Of a DNA stretch of 23,016 nucleotides, positions 4,720 to 12,758 are shown piece after piece (positions within the stretch are counted from its first letter, which is position 1; every line of letters starts with the position of its first letter). This DNA is from a virus, in IMG/VR virus record IMGVR_UViG_3300034166_000236, positions 1 through 23,016 of that record; one strand, written 5' to 3'. Under the pieces are notes generated by a model that did not search any database, was not told the origin of the DNA, and saw only the letters and a program-made list of their open reading frames with translations. A program made the position numbers and the translations under genes.

Positions 4720-5216
4720 TGTTATCTATATTATCTGGAATACTAGGTTTTGCTACAAGCGGACTTCCTAGTTTACTATCATTCTTTCAACAAAAAGGTG
4801 ACCAAAAACATGAACGAGAAATGGCTAAACTTCAAACAGAACGTGAACTTGAACTTGCAAAAGCTGGTTTCGTATCTCAAGAAAAAATTGAAGCAATTAA
4901 ACTTGACCAAATAGAAACACAAACATACGCAGAAGAACGTGTAGCATTGTATGACCATGACAAAAAACTTGTAGATGGTGCAAGCAAAACAGTTAAGAAC
5001 TGGAACGCTATGGTAAGACCTGTAGTAGCTTTTATCTTTGTAGGTGAGTTAGTTCTTATTAACCTTATCTCATTAGCTTGGGCTATGTGGTCAGGTGTAG
5101 ACTTTGTTGTAGCATCTCAAGAAGTATTTGGTTCTGAAGAAATGGCTATTACTGCGTCTATTATTGGCTTTTACTTTGGTTCTCGCACATGGGAAAAGAA
5201 ACGTGAAAGCATCTAA
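4719..5216 (+). CDS. Holin of the GTA 3-TM type
   Basis: A 165-residue protein. It has a hydrophobic N-terminal segment (about 3-22), a charged coiled-coil middle (about 25-95), a long TM segment (about 98-125, RPVVAFIFVGELVLINLISL) and a last TM segment ending in GFYFGSRTW. The FYFGSR ending and overall order match the holin family with three TMs first described from gene transfer agents. It would form the inner-membrane lesion that releases the lysozyme encoded immediately downstream. AAAGGA precedes the ATG. Confidence 0.75.
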   Translation: MLSILSGILGFATSGLPSLLSFFQQKGDQKHEREMAKLQTERELELAKAGFVSQEKIEAIKLDQIETQTYAEERVALYDHDKKLVDGASKTVKNWNAMVRPVVAFIFVGELVLINLISLAWAMWSGVDFVVASQEVFGSEEMAITASIIGFYFGSRTWEKKRESI

Positions 5217-5652
5217 TGTTTGCATACAACTTCTTAAACATCATGAGGGTGTTAGGTACAAGCCTTATACTTGCCCTGCTGGTCTGTGGACTGTGGGTGT
5301 TGGTCATCTTATCGGTGATGGTAAGTCTTTGCCTAGAGAGTGGAACAAAACTTTTACACAGGCTGAAGTAGATGGAATTCTTAAACGAGACCTCAATCGC
5401 TTCGAGCTGGGAATATCTAAGATGTTACCTAACACGCCTCTTAGACAACACGAGTTTGACGCTATCTTATCTTTCTGCTTTAATCTTGGTCTTGGTTGCT
5501 TTCAACGAAGCACCATCCGTCAAGCGTTGTTACGTGGCGATAAAGAAGCGGCTATGGAGTCGTTAGTCAAATATTGCAGAGCTGGTGGCAAGATATTAAA
5601 AGGTTTACAAAACAGAAGATTAGATGAACGCAAATTGTTTTTAGGTATATAA
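5203..5652 (+). CDS. Endolysin, GH24 (T4/P21-type) lysozyme
   Basis: A 149-residue muramidase that cleaves the MurNAc-GlcNAc bond of peptidoglycan. The catalytic triad has the E-x8-C-x5-T form: E15, C24, T30 (HEGVRYKPYTCPAGLWT), the Cys variant known in lambdoid lysozymes. I chose the GTG at 5203: it puts the conserved opening (MKASN.. I..L.K..EG) at the N-terminus as in soluble members, and GGGAAAAGAA lies upstream. The frame stays open to a TTG at 5128, which would add a Leu-rich, possibly SAR-like segment read out of frame from the holin gene. It overlaps the holin by 14 bases. Confidence 0.9.
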   Translation: MKASNVCIQLLKHHEGVRYKPYTCPAGLWTVGVGHLIGDGKSLPREWNKTFTQAEVDGILKRDLNRFELGISKMLPNTPLRQHEFDAILSFCFNLGLGCFQRSTIRQALLRGDKEAAMESLVKYCRAGGKILKGLQNRRLDERKLFLGI

Positions 5653-8243: not shown

Positions 8244-8472
8244 TGTTAGCCTCTACAAGACGTTTACTATCATATTTAGATAATACTTTATATTCCTCTA
8301 TGGGTTCACCAGGAACTAATGGTGTTATCTTAATATGATGCGTTGTATTTTTTAGGTCGTTTAAATATGAAAGCTGATTAGGATGAAATGACCATAAATA
8401 AGACTTCTTTAAATCACCAGACCTAACATCAAACTCCTCATAAAGCCATGCTACAGGTTCTTTTTTAGCCAT
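8233..8472 (-). CDS. Conserved small phage protein
   Basis: A 79-residue protein starting MAKKEPVAWLYEEFD. The 'EPVAWLYE' opening recurs in many small phage proteins of unknown role. It has no TM helix. Its ATG shares a base with the stop of the SleB-like gene (TAATG), and its end overlaps the TM-protein gene by 11 bases, so translation is probably coupled. Confidence 0.55.
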   Translation of the reverse strand: MAKKEPVAWLYEEFDVRSGDLKKSYLWSFHPNQLSYLNDLKNTTHHIKITPLVPGEPIEEYKVLSKYDSKRLVEANNGL

Positions 8473-8855
8473 TAGTAAAACACCATCCTTCCTATGTGCG
8501 TTTTTTTGCGTTTACCAAACCATTCTTTTTTTTGCGGTATTGAGTCATCATGGAAATATAAAGCATTTGCAACTGGGTTAGCATGTTTATTATGGACAAT
8601 CGTATCAATAACCAAAAGTTTAGTTTCCAAATACGCCCTTTCATTAATGGGTAAATGACGTTCATCCGTAACCCCAATAAACTGACCATTAGCATAAACA
8701 ACAGAACATACATCACGACCCCAATAACCAGTATGTAACCTATTACGTATAACATTTATAACACCTACCTTTTCTTCTAGTGTTCTATTATTAACTTCAT
8801 GGTACACCGCTGTCGCATAACATGAAACGTCTAATTCTAAGTTATGTATATCCAT
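8472..8855 (-). CDS. SleB-like cell wall hydrolase
   Basis: A 127-residue protein of the Hydrolase_2 (SleB) type. It has AVYHE with the probable catalytic Glu (E20), the helix EEKVGVINVIRNRL, CSVVYANGQF, and a C-terminal ALYFHDD ... GRMVFY segment, all in the order known for this family of lytic transglycosylase-like enzymes. It covers the catalytic domain only and has no signal peptide. It lies in the early-type leftward operon, not with the lysis genes, so a role other than final lysis is possible. It overlaps both neighbours. Confidence 0.75.
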   Translation of the reverse strand: MDIHNLELDVSCYATAVYHEVNNRTLEEKVGVINVIRNRLHTGYWGRDVCSVVYANGQFIGVTDERHLPINERAYLETKLLVIDTIVHNKHANPVANALYFHDDSIPQKKEWFGKRKKTHIGRMVFY

Positions 8856-9033
8856 TAGATTTATTTTGAATTAAATTTTTATTCATTAATGCAACTTGTT
8901 GAATTTCAAATTTATTTTTATTATTTATTAAATTTAATTTTGACTCAGCTTTTGCTTTATGAATATATAAACATTCATCTAATGGTGATTTGTCATGTTT
9001 AAATACAATTGCCCATCTTGTAAAAATTGTCAT
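8842..9033 (-). CDS. Small hypothetical protein
   Basis: A 63-residue basic protein (Lys/Asn-rich C-terminal half). Residues 1-30 form a compact strand-helix unit (FTRWAIVFKHDKSPLDECLY). AAAAGG precedes the ATG with good spacing, and the gene overlaps the SleB-like gene by 14 bases. Function unknown. Confidence 0.5.
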   Translation of the reverse strand: MTIFTRWAIVFKHDKSPLDECLYIHKAKAESKLNLINNKNKFEIQQVALMNKNLIQNKSNGYT

Positions 9034-9106
9034 TATATTTGCCTTTTAAATAATTTACTAGTATAAACTTAATGTATTTACAGTATATTTTAAGTCTTAA
9101 ATTTTA

Positions 9107-9112
9107 TATAAT
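9107..9112 (+). promoter_or_regulatory. -10 box of the pqqA promoter
   Basis: A consensus TATAAT lies 48 bases upstream of the pqqA start in a 126-bp non-coding gap (9034-9159). No good -35 is seen at 16-18 bases; the region upstream is nearly pure A/T and could act as an UP element. A start near 9119 would give a leader of about 41 bases. Confidence 0.5.
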
Positions 9113-9159
9113 CTTATTGTATTGTGCAATTATGCATATACATTTTAAGGAGAAATATT

Positions 9160-9231
9160 ATGTGGACAACTCCAGCAGCTACAGAAATGCGTTTTGGCTT
9201 TGAAGTCACAATGTATGTAATGAATAAGTAA
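9160..9231 (+). CDS. pqqA: PqqA, PQQ precursor peptide
   Basis: A 23-residue peptide beginning MWTTPAATEMRFGF and containing E15-V-T-M-Y19, then ending Asn-Lys. PqqA peptides of this type (23 residues, Trp at 2, Pro at 5, R11, G13) provide the Glu15 and Tyr19 that PqqE, with PqqD, joins by a C-C bond to make PQQ. Both key residues and their spacing are intact here. AAGGAG (9147-9152) lies 7 bases before the ATG, an ideal site. The gene is on the opposite strand to all genes from 6863 to 13610 and has its own -10 box, as a moron would. No pqqB-E is present, so host enzymes would be needed. Confidence 0.9.
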   Translation: MWTTPAATEMRFGFEVTMYVMNK

Positions 9232-9240
9232 TTGCATTAT

Positions 9241-9268
9241 GAGGACATGTCTAAAAAGGCATGTCTTC
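9241..9268. other. Hairpin just after pqqA
   Basis: GAGGACATG (9241-9249) pairs with CATGTCTTC (9260-9268), 9 bp with one G-U, around a 10-base loop. It begins 9 bases after the pqqA stop. Its right arm is also the coding end of the minus-strand SSB-like gene, whose stop is in the loop. There is no T-tract on either side, so it may protect the 3' end or slow transcription rather than terminate it. Confidence 0.4.
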
Positions 9269-9487
9269 ACCTTCTGCCGCAGGTTTACTATATTCCGTGT
9301 TTTTGTTTTCTTTTAATTGTACAGTGCCTGAAACAAACTTACCTTTTGCGCTTTCGCGTATCCAACCTGATAGTCTAAATTCAATACCATCAACATTCAT
9401 ATTCCCAGTCCAATCTGGTCGTTTTGGGTTTTCACCCTTGTCATTAACAAATAATGTAAATGTGTTTGTGTTATCATACTGTGCCAT
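9251..9487 (-). CDS. SSB-like ssDNA-binding protein with acidic C-tip
   Basis: A 78-residue protein; the ATG at 9487 has AAGGAG upstream and is preferred to longer starts. The body is beta-rich (TFTLFVNDKGENPKRPDWTG ... GIEFRLSGWIRES), of the size of a minimal OB-like fold. The last seven residues, EGEDMPF, closely copy the acidic Pro-Phe tip of bacterial SSB that recruits repair and replication proteins. It sits directly downstream of an exonuclease and an annealing protein. SSB-like function is inferred from the tip and the context; I do not recognise a canonical SSB domain. Confidence 0.6.
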   Translation of the reverse strand: MAQYDNTNTFTLFVNDKGENPKRPDWTGNMNVDGIEFRLSGWIRESAKGKFVSGTVQLKENKNTEYSKPAAEGEDMPF

Positions 9488-9488
9488 G

Positions 9489-10040
9489 CTAGTTCTCCTT
9501 AGTGTAAATAGGTTTTTTCTTCCATCGTGTTGGTTCTGTGTCAGACTCAACAAATTGCATAAATTCTAATAATAATGGTTTGTACCACTCTAACCATTTA
9601 TCATCTTTCTTAACTAACTCTACAGTTATACCACTTGGGGTCCAAACACTAAACCATCCTTGTTCACGATCGCAGCAATGTATTTGCATTTGAACTTGCC
9701 AATAATATCTATCTGGTATTCCATCATAAAATTCTTGTGTAAATGGACATTTAAACTCTACTGGGTCACCATTGTAAAATGCATCAGGACTAGCACCTAT
9801 AGGTAAACTATTATGCACTATAAGTTTATTACCTGATTCGCATATATCACTCATACTTTTTTCAAACTCAGACAAAGCATCTTTCTCATGTAAATTACCC
9901 CATTCAGTCATTTCATTGCCTTCAAATGGAGCTTCTCTTAAAGTCATTTGACGCCAAAGTTTTTGTCTTTCGTTTACAGAAGCCCAAGCATTAGATGCTG
10001 TTACAATATTATGCCTACGTTTATCTAGCAAATGACTCAT
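9489..10040 (-). CDS. YqaJ-type recombination exonuclease
   Basis: A 183-residue nuclease of the lambda-exonuclease/YqaJ class. Motifs: TEWGNLHEKDAL with E52, GASPDAFY with D86, and VEFKCP with E95-x-K97, followed by Q115/Q117 in YYWQVQMQIH. It would degrade one strand of dsDNA 5' to 3' and hand the ssDNA to the annealing protein encoded just upstream (ATGA overlap of 4 bases). Together they form a Red-type recombination pair. Confidence 0.88.
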   Translation of the reverse strand: MSHLLDKRRHNIVTASNAWASVNERQKLWRQMTLREAPFEGNEMTEWGNLHEKDALSEFEKSMSDICESGNKLIVHNSLPIGASPDAFYNGDPVEFKCPFTQEFYDGIPDRYYWQVQMQIHCCDREQGWFSVWTPSGITVELVKKDDKWLEWYKPLLLEFMQFVESDTEPTRWKKKPIYTKEN

Positions 10041-11156: not shown

Positions 11157-11603
11157 TTATTGATTTTTAACAACTTTTATTGTATCCCATATTCTACCTC
11201 CTTGTTCCCATAGGCGTTGACTTACTTCAGAATGAGGATAAGGTTCTGCCATAACAAGTCTTTTACATCCTGTGTTAAGTAATACTTTAATACAATGCAC
11301 ACAAGGTGCTGTAGTGCAATATGCTGTATATATTTCTTTTACATCTTTACAATTAATAACAGCATTCATTTCGGCATGAATAGATTCACATTTATCAAGA
11401 CCTTGACCTGATTCATAATAAGCGCCTTCACATGGAATATCTATACAATGATCAAAACCAGATGGCACGCCGTTATAACCTGTAGCAAGTACTTGATTTT
11501 CTTTTGACACAAGAATACAACCAACTTTACGGCGTATACATGTACCTCTTGATGCTGCAAGTTTTGCCATAGTTATAAAATATTTGTCTATACTAGGTCT
11601 CAT
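11157..11603 (-). CDS. Deoxycytidylate (dCMP) deaminase
   Basis: A 148-residue zinc enzyme converting dCMP to dUMP. H76-A-E78 (zinc ligand and proton shuttle) and P100-C101-V-H-C104 (zinc ligands) are intact, and the phage/dCMP-type insert with extra His/Cys (FDHCIDIPCEGAYY) is present. I took the ATG at 11603, which matches the family's usual N-terminus (RPSIDKYFITMAKLAASRGT) and overlaps the upstream gene by 11 bases. It would feed dUMP to the thymidylate-synthase-like protein or remove dCMP. Confidence 0.9.
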   Translation of the reverse strand: MRPSIDKYFITMAKLAASRGTCIRRKVGCILVSKENQVLATGYNGVPSGFDHCIDIPCEGAYYESGQGLDKCESIHAEMNAVINCKDVKEIYTAYCTTAPCVHCIKVLLNTGCKRLVMAEPYPHSEVSQRLWEQGGRIWDTIKVVKNQ

Positions 11604-12360
11604 TATGCAACCATTTAATAAATTCACCGCCATGCGATGGATATAAACCATTTAATAATTGCTGCGCATCAGATAAATCAATCTTTGGTCTTTTTATTTC
11701 ATAAAATGTATCTTTATGTAATATTGTATCTAACATATTAAAATGCCGTTCATATACATGAAATGATTCTACAAAATGATGATATCGACCTTGCGGTATA
11801 TTAAGTGCGACAGCCACAATTTCCCAACATAAATTAAAAAATGGTAAGTCATTACCTAAACCATAAATAGCATCTTGACTACGCATGTGTACAGTCATAT
11901 TTAAAACACCATCTCTAATTCTAAAACCTAAAGTGGATGTACAAGGTACATCATTATTATCAGAAAACAAATGTTGATGAGAATTAAATATAGATACCAA
12001 TGCGCGGCGTGAGTCTTTATCTCTTGTTAATTCATTAACTACAAAACCAAGACCAGCTTTAGTAAATAAATAGTAACCATAATTACTATGCAATTTTCCA
12101 TTAGTTACACATTTTTTCCATATTGCAGCTTCATTACAAATACTCAAGTCTTCTAAACTACCTTTAAAATACCATTGAATTTCTTTTTTAATATAATTTA
12201 TATTTAACTTACGTGATTCAAAATTAATAAATTTATGATATGGTAAAAAATCTATATGATAATTTTCTAGTTCTTTTGTTAACATTCCACGTGGTGAGCG
12301 TTCTTTACCTCTTACATGTAAATCTCTGTAAATTTTTGTATACAATAGTTTTTCATTCAT
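11593..12360 (-). CDS. Thymidylate synthase / pyrimidine hydroxymethylase-family protein
   Basis: A 255-residue protein of the ThyA superfamily. The catalytic Cys is C140 (DVPCTSTLGFRI), the phosphate-binding R160-S-Q-D163 follows, and H201-V-Y-E-R-H is the nucleotide-binding end motif. The usual Asn after GLPF that reads the uracil ring in ThyA aligns with D171 (YGLGNDLPFF); Asp at that site is the known switch in T4 dCMP hydroxymethylase. The His after the catalytic Cys is also replaced by Thr. Substrate could therefore be dCMP rather than dUMP. Similar proteins are often simply called thymidylate synthase in phages. Confidence 0.8.
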   Translation of the reverse strand: MNEKLLYTKIYRDLHVRGKERSPRGMLTKELENYHIDFLPYHKFINFESRKLNINYIKKEIQWYFKGSLEDLSICNEAAIWKKCVTNGKLHSNYGYYLFTKAGLGFVVNELTRDKDSRRALVSIFNSHQHLFSDNNDVPCTSTLGFRIRDGVLNMTVHMRSQDAIYGLGNDLPFFNLCWEIVAVALNIPQGRYHHFVESFHVYERHFNMLDTILHKDTFYEIKRPKIDLSDAQQLLNGLYPSHGGEFIKWLHNET

Positions 12361-12371
12361 AGTAGATTCCG

Positions 12372-12758
12372 TTATACACTTTCAATAATACGTTTTAAGT
12401 CAGGACCTACCCAACCTTGTGGTTTAACAACATCTAATGAATTTTTACGCTTTGACTGTGATGCATCAGATGCTCTTACTTTATCCATATTTGAACGTTG
12501 TACTTCATCCCATAGTTGCTGCCAAGGTAAACCCATCATATATGCAGTTCCCATTGCAACATAAACAATATCAACCAATGCATCTGCCATACCTACTACA
12601 TCATCCAAATTTGCACTTAAAATAAATTCATTTAACTCTTCTTCCAAAAAATGTGCGCGATATGCCTGAGTAGATTTATCTAATGCTATAGGTTTACCTT
12701 CATATTTCAAACCAAATTTGTTATGAAATTCAACTACATCTTGATAATTTGTCTTCAT
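12372..12758 (-). CDS. MazG-like nucleotide pyrophosphohydrolase
   Basis: A 128-residue all-alpha NTP pyrophosphatase. Metal ligands are in place: E40-x3-E44 in LEEELNEF and D59-x3-D63 in ADALVDIVYVAMG, followed by EVQRSNMDKV, typical of phage MazG/PRA-PH-like proteins. Such enzymes cleave (d)NTPs to monophosphates, which would supply substrates for the dCMP deaminase and thymidylate-synthase-like protein encoded next. AAAAGGA precedes the ATG. Confidence 0.8.
   Translation of the reverse strand: MKTNYQDVVEFHNKFGLKYEGKPIALDKSTQAYRAHFLEEELNEFILSANLDDVVGMADALVDIVYVAMGTAYMMGLPWQQLWDEVQRSNMDKVRASDASQSKRKNSLDVVKPQGWVGPDLKRIIESV

Follow-up and report, generated by a model that had tools for sequence, protein, structure and literature searches.

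A stand-alone gene for the PQQ precursor peptide PqqA in a predicted methylophage fragment and in unlike phages of methylotrophs, with a probable role as an auxiliary metabolic gene

Introduction

PQQ is the cofactor of the methanol dehydrogenases MxaF and XoxF. Its precursor PqqA is a ribosomally made substrate of PqqD and PqqE, and the Glu-x3-Tyr pair of this peptide becomes PQQ. A notable flux of carbon passes through methanol oxidation in OM43 and its pelagic relatives among the Methylophilaceae, and coastal water abounds in phages of these bacteria.

Phage pqqA is already known as a kind of gene from one clear report, in which the Lake Baikal viral population VP_266 (2020) was found to encode PqqA together with methanol dehydrogenase and the genes were read as raising methanol oxidation (PMC7678222). 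The same paper states that phage P19250A has none of these genes (PMC7678222). Viral pqqA also appears among the phosphorus-cycling genes listed in a 2026 study (PMC13188868), and phage pqqA is unmentioned in the open papers on the methylophages Venkman, MEP301, MEP401/402 and Melnitz.

Here we analysed a linear IMG/VR virus record of 23,016 bases, referred to as the window, for which a reading made from the sequence alone had proposed a phage-encoded PqqA of 23 codons. Like VP_266, the window has a phage PqqA in a predicted methylophage.

Results

A full-length PqqA is encoded in a tailed-phage fragment

The window encodes a terminase, a portal protein, a helicase, a single-stranded DNA-binding protein (SSB), a RecE-like exonuclease and a Sak-like ssDNA-annealing protein, and the contig is a fragment of a tailed phage. 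The sequence-only reading was right to call it a phage, since the terminase, portal, helicase and ssDNA-annealing genes all lie in a virus record. The gene and its immediate surroundings are as follows.

9160-9231, plus strand: pqqA, 23 codons, product MWTTPAATEMRFGFEVTMYVMNK, assigned by TIGR02107 and PF08042, host/phage identity and pN/pS
9147-9152, plus strand: Shine-Dalgarno motif AAGGAG, 7 bases 5' of the pqqA ATG, from the sequence
9251-9484, minus strand: ssb, single-stranded DNA-binding protein (phrog_18154, E=7e-15), convergent with pqqA; context, outside the function of pqqA

The ORF starts with the ATG at 9160 and closes with a TAA stop ending at 9231, and both its 23 codons and the 7-base spacing of AAGGAG agree with the earlier description. 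It stands on the opposite strand to its surroundings, as had also been noted, with 8842-9033, 9251-9553 and the genes beyond them all on the minus strand. The residues that had suggested PqqA (W2, P5, R11, G13, E15 and Y19) are all present. Searched against the curated models, MWTTPAATEMRFGFEVTMYVMNK exceeded the cut-offs of TIGR02107 (38.8 bits, E=5.6e-10, cut-off 20, profile positions 1-21 of 21) and PF08042 (40.3 bits, E=3e-10, cut-off 21.1, profile positions 1-19 of 19) and is a full-length PqqA by both. A degenerate pattern covering most of the peptide matched once in the window and in none of 100 shuffles. This test, together with strong purifying selection in relatives (see below), places the ORF far above chance expectation.

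Elsewhere in the window, a nucleotide-metabolism block at 11157-12758 on the minus strand encodes dCMP deaminase, thymidylate synthase-like and MazG-like (PRA-PH) proteins. Two genes for lysis-type enzymes lie apart from each other, at 5128-5652 (plus strand) and 8472-8855 (minus strand); their products are an endolysin and a cell wall hydrolase (PF07486).

The peptide equals host PqqA and carriers appear to rely on host enzymes

When the peptide was compared with host genomes, exactly the same peptide was found in Methylotenera and other Methylophilaceae-type genomes. Many viral PqqA peptides, among them that of the window, match host PqqA exactly, and the window gene and the nearest host-type pqqA copy agree at 66 of 69 bases. 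The model scores and the host-identical peptide support the identification as PqqA. A methylotroph host, as first proposed, is likewise supported by the identical peptide and by the matched phages with a recorded host, all of which infect Methylophilales bacteria. Some pqqA copies in Methylophilaceae-type genomes (L172, L182 and others) stand in tandem, and these genomes have a single PqqE. All 11 host-type genomes examined carry 2-5 copies of pqqA, even at 1.2 Mb, and PqqE was found once over cut-off in ten of them and as a partial match in the eleventh. Several pqqA genes with a single pqqE would be expected for a consumed, dosage-limiting substrate.

Which part of the pathway the phages carry was judged from searches of carrier contigs for PqqE and methanol dehydrogenase. 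PqqE over cut-off was present in none of the 50 carriers, so the rest of the PQQ pathway would presumably come from the host, and a PQQ-dependent methanol dehydrogenase was present in one, the 72-kb contig L051. Carrier phages thus appear to supply only the consumed peptide and to rely on host enzymes. In L051 (IMGVR_UViG_3300025120_009955) the PQQ-dependent alcohol/methanol dehydrogenase, over cut-off, spans 34049-35731 and pqqA lies at about 41.9 kb.

We consider it probable that genuine phage pqqA is an auxiliary metabolic gene that supplies consumed substrate to host PqqD/PqqE. It occurs in real phage genomes (the window and complete genomes of cultured phages), it has a host homologue and it is under selection in phages. 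From the sequence data we infer that the gene is expressed, that the host's PqqD/PqqE process its product, that PQQ increases and that the phage benefits, as follows. During infection the phage would produce PqqA from a compact unit that stands alone and has a ribosome-binding site of its own as well as a probable 3' hairpin. Host PqqD would bind the peptide, host PqqE would join Glu15 to Tyr19 and the remaining host enzymes would complete PQQ; recognition by PqqD and cross-linking by PqqE are likely because the phage peptide is identical to host PqqA. Since PqqA is consumed stoichiometrically, one per PQQ, extra peptide would keep or raise PQQ. The activity of PQQ-dependent methanol dehydrogenase would follow, and would feed energy and carbon to phage production as host transcription falls. 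The presence of the gene does not by itself mean that PqqA limits PQQ during infection, and the benefit may be small if PQQ already bound in methanol dehydrogenase outlasts a short infection.

The same sequence facts, including phages that carry only the consumed part, would be expected if the phage copy just replaced the host pqqA expression that is lost on shutdown of host DNA or transcription, leaving PQQ without a net increase. We regard this as unlikely in its strict form; it amounts to a milder version of the supply reading that we favour, and sequence cannot separate the two.

Viral pqqA is conserved and under strong purifying selection

To survey viral copies, IMG/VR was scanned with degenerate DNA patterns. 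The GFEVTMY pattern matched at least 120 contigs, and all matches listed were PqqA. This pattern fixes Glu15 and Tyr19 and is unable to test their conservation; a second scan of IMG/VR used the N-terminal half only and left both residues free. In the second scan Glu15, Tyr19 and the stop position were kept in 120 of the 120 loci listed. Over the unconstrained codons 14-23 of 108 distinct genes, we counted 284 synonymous against 36 non-synonymous departures from the consensus; of the single changes possible there, 14 are synonymous and 76 non-synonymous, which gives a pN/pS of 0.073; the sequences within each scan are related and these counts are not independent events. Most of the non-synonymous change falls on residue 21. 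An SD-like motif precedes pqqA in all 173 distinct viral loci. The conservation of the Glu/Tyr pair and the stop, the low pN/pS and the SD motif in every distinct locus together indicate that viral pqqA is a translated gene under selection.

These data also bear on whether the phage peptide could act as a decoy that occupies host PqqD/PqqE, lowers PQQ and turns the cell away from methanol oxidation. An excess of any PqqA would presumably occupy PqqD and PqqE, but the reacting residues of a decoy should be lost or changed, or the peptide should diverge, whereas both residues are kept throughout the 120 listed loci and many viral peptides, the window's among them, equal the host's. Such a decoy is therefore disfavoured and seems improbable to us, and the sequence evidence favours a supply of substrate that boosts PQQ.

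The gene was then followed in relatives of the window phage. Among contigs with a similar terminase, pqqA is present in 15 of 36 that are at least 9 kb long, 13 of 15 that are at least 18 kb and 6 of 6 that are at least 35 kb. The absences are mostly in fragments, and pqqA is thus near-core in this phage group. In many relatives its site is convergent to ssb and near the exonuclease and annealing genes, and SSB is on the opposite strand to pqqA in 31 of 31 loci in which it lies at most 400 bases away. A lack of conservation of the ORF and its Glu/Tyr pair in relatives had been named beforehand, as a computable outcome, as speaking against the proposal; both features proved to be conserved, in relatives as well as in unrelated phages. 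A scan for the alphaproteobacterial type of PqqA (GMEVT[ST]YE) returned just two viral contigs (L429 and L430), and viral pqqA is therefore concentrated in the beta/gamma-proteobacterial type. A divergent PqqA of the IRLGFEVTMYF type occurs in viral contigs L012, L021, L026, L032 and L036, which may originate from phages of other PQQ-making bacteria.

Cultured methylophages encode PqqA that their annotations miss

In a tblastn search of 50,697 named phage records, the window peptide matched 12 records. Nine of these are phages of Methylophilales/Methylophilaceae, with identities to the window PqqA of 100% (P19250A), 91% (MEP301 and Venkman), 83% (MEP401 and MEP402) and 73% (four Melnitz records). 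The uncultured podovirus ctXG6705 also matches, at 96%. The remaining two are filed as Acinetobacter phage and were dropped, the one examined being bacterial in type and carrying a complete pqq cluster. This record, CAKLQF020000010.1 (L009), named Acinetobacter phage MD-2021a, holds a bacterial pqqABCDE cluster and polyphosphate kinase and looks like host chromosome. Named phage records with a related terminase number 1,786 and come mostly from other hosts, whereas the matches to PqqA in the same collection were confined to methylophages, the one uncultured podovirus and the two records of bacterial type. The methylophages with pqqA are unlike one another, comprising Zobellviridae (MEP401/402), Kyanoviridae (Melnitz), P19250A, Venkman and MEP301.

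The PqqA of P19250A, identical to that of the window, contradicts the statement that this phage has none of these genes (PMC7678222). Annotation of pqqA is absent from every phage record examined, and two records instead carry an ORF called antisense over it, Melnitz (L007, 3961-4056) and ctXG6705 (L003, 2067-2195). These two calls are spurious and hide a real pqqA, in line with the earlier remark that the gene is too short for normal gene callers. An alignment of 95 bases raised the possibility that P19250A and the window had recently exchanged a complete pqqA cassette, but this was rejected, the ungapped upstream identity being only 9 of 25; the coding sequence is therefore the only part clearly common to the two.

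It could be argued that the phages acquired pqqA from a host by accident and carry it passively, or that bacterial DNA was miscalled as virus. The 66 of 69 bases shared with a host-type copy mean that exchange with hosts may be fairly recent, and some short IMG/VR contigs could be bacterial. However, the complete genomes of cultured phages already contradict this reading, and the conserved site beside ssb and recombination genes, the near-core status in long relatives and the strong purifying selection also count against it, so we give it very little credence.

Flanking signals suggest a small stand-alone unit

Two further elements were found on either side of the gene.

9106-9111 (approximate to a few bases), plus strand: possible -10 element TATAAT, in the sequence atatAATc upstream of pqqA
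9241-9268, plus strand: stem-loop of 12 pairs in the window, directly 3' of pqqA and overlapping the end of the convergent ssb

An exact TATAAT lies upstream in 64 of 168 viral loci as compared with 14% in shuffles, which were mononucleotide shuffles only. A sigma-70 scan chose no site at the -10 candidate of the window and found nothing above expectation. A promoter of its own is thus a plausible but weak candidate for pqqA.

The hairpin between pqqA and ssb is conserved in 15 relatives, in which both partners have changed in 4 of 11 pairs, and one of its arms overlaps the end of ssb and is hence also under coding constraint. In some relatives (L342 and L106) a terminator hairpin of typical form with a T-run occupies the same site. 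Sequence 3' of pqqA folds with a mean of -10.6 kcal/mol, against -4.9 kcal/mol in shuffles. The element is probably a transcription end or an mRNA-stabilising hairpin. Its overlap with the end of ssb might suggest that an RNA (a small RNA or an antisense to ssb) is what is conserved, rather than the peptide, but this is hardly credible given that changes within the gene are overwhelmingly synonymous, that other phages have the peptide without an ssb neighbour and that the peptide matches an enzyme substrate.

Discussion

Within the literature searched, what appears to be new is a stand-alone, near-core and usually unannotated pqqA across unlike methylophages. We lean towards a broader view in which nearly all phages of pelagic methylotrophs have pqqA as a host-specific core gene, acquired by unrelated families and hidden by its size, that would raise a host cofactor through a ribosomally made, consumed precursor and no enzymes. 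Since the gene is also present in the cultured phages of these hosts that could be checked, supplying the host's cofactor pathway seems to be an ordinary feature of methylotroph infection. The occurrence of this overlooked gene in cultured methylophages suggests that the supply of PQQ is important to infection, and is a reminder that peptide-sized genes escape surveys of auxiliary metabolic genes. The gene could also serve as a sequence marker for phages of Methylophilaceae hosts. Phage-host pairs in culture (Venkman/H5P1, MEP401/FZCC0133 and P19250A/IMCC19250) make the proposed role testable.

The window gene can be set against three known systems. Host pqqA of Methylophilaceae (Methylotenera, Methylophilus and the OM43 clade) encodes the same 23-residue peptide and is nearly the same at the DNA level in its nearest copy, whereas the phage copy is surrounded by genes for DNA replication and recombination, has a ribosome-binding site and a 3' hairpin of its own, and comes without a pqqE over cut-off in the 50 carriers. 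The cultured methylophages P19250A, Venkman, MEP301, MEP401/402 and Melnitz, like the window, encode PqqA, at 73-100% identity. VP_266 is T4-like and has a methanol dehydrogenase, whereas the present carriers are mostly smaller phages with pqqA alone; L051 resembles VP_266 in having a PQQ-dependent dehydrogenase and pqqA on one viral contig.
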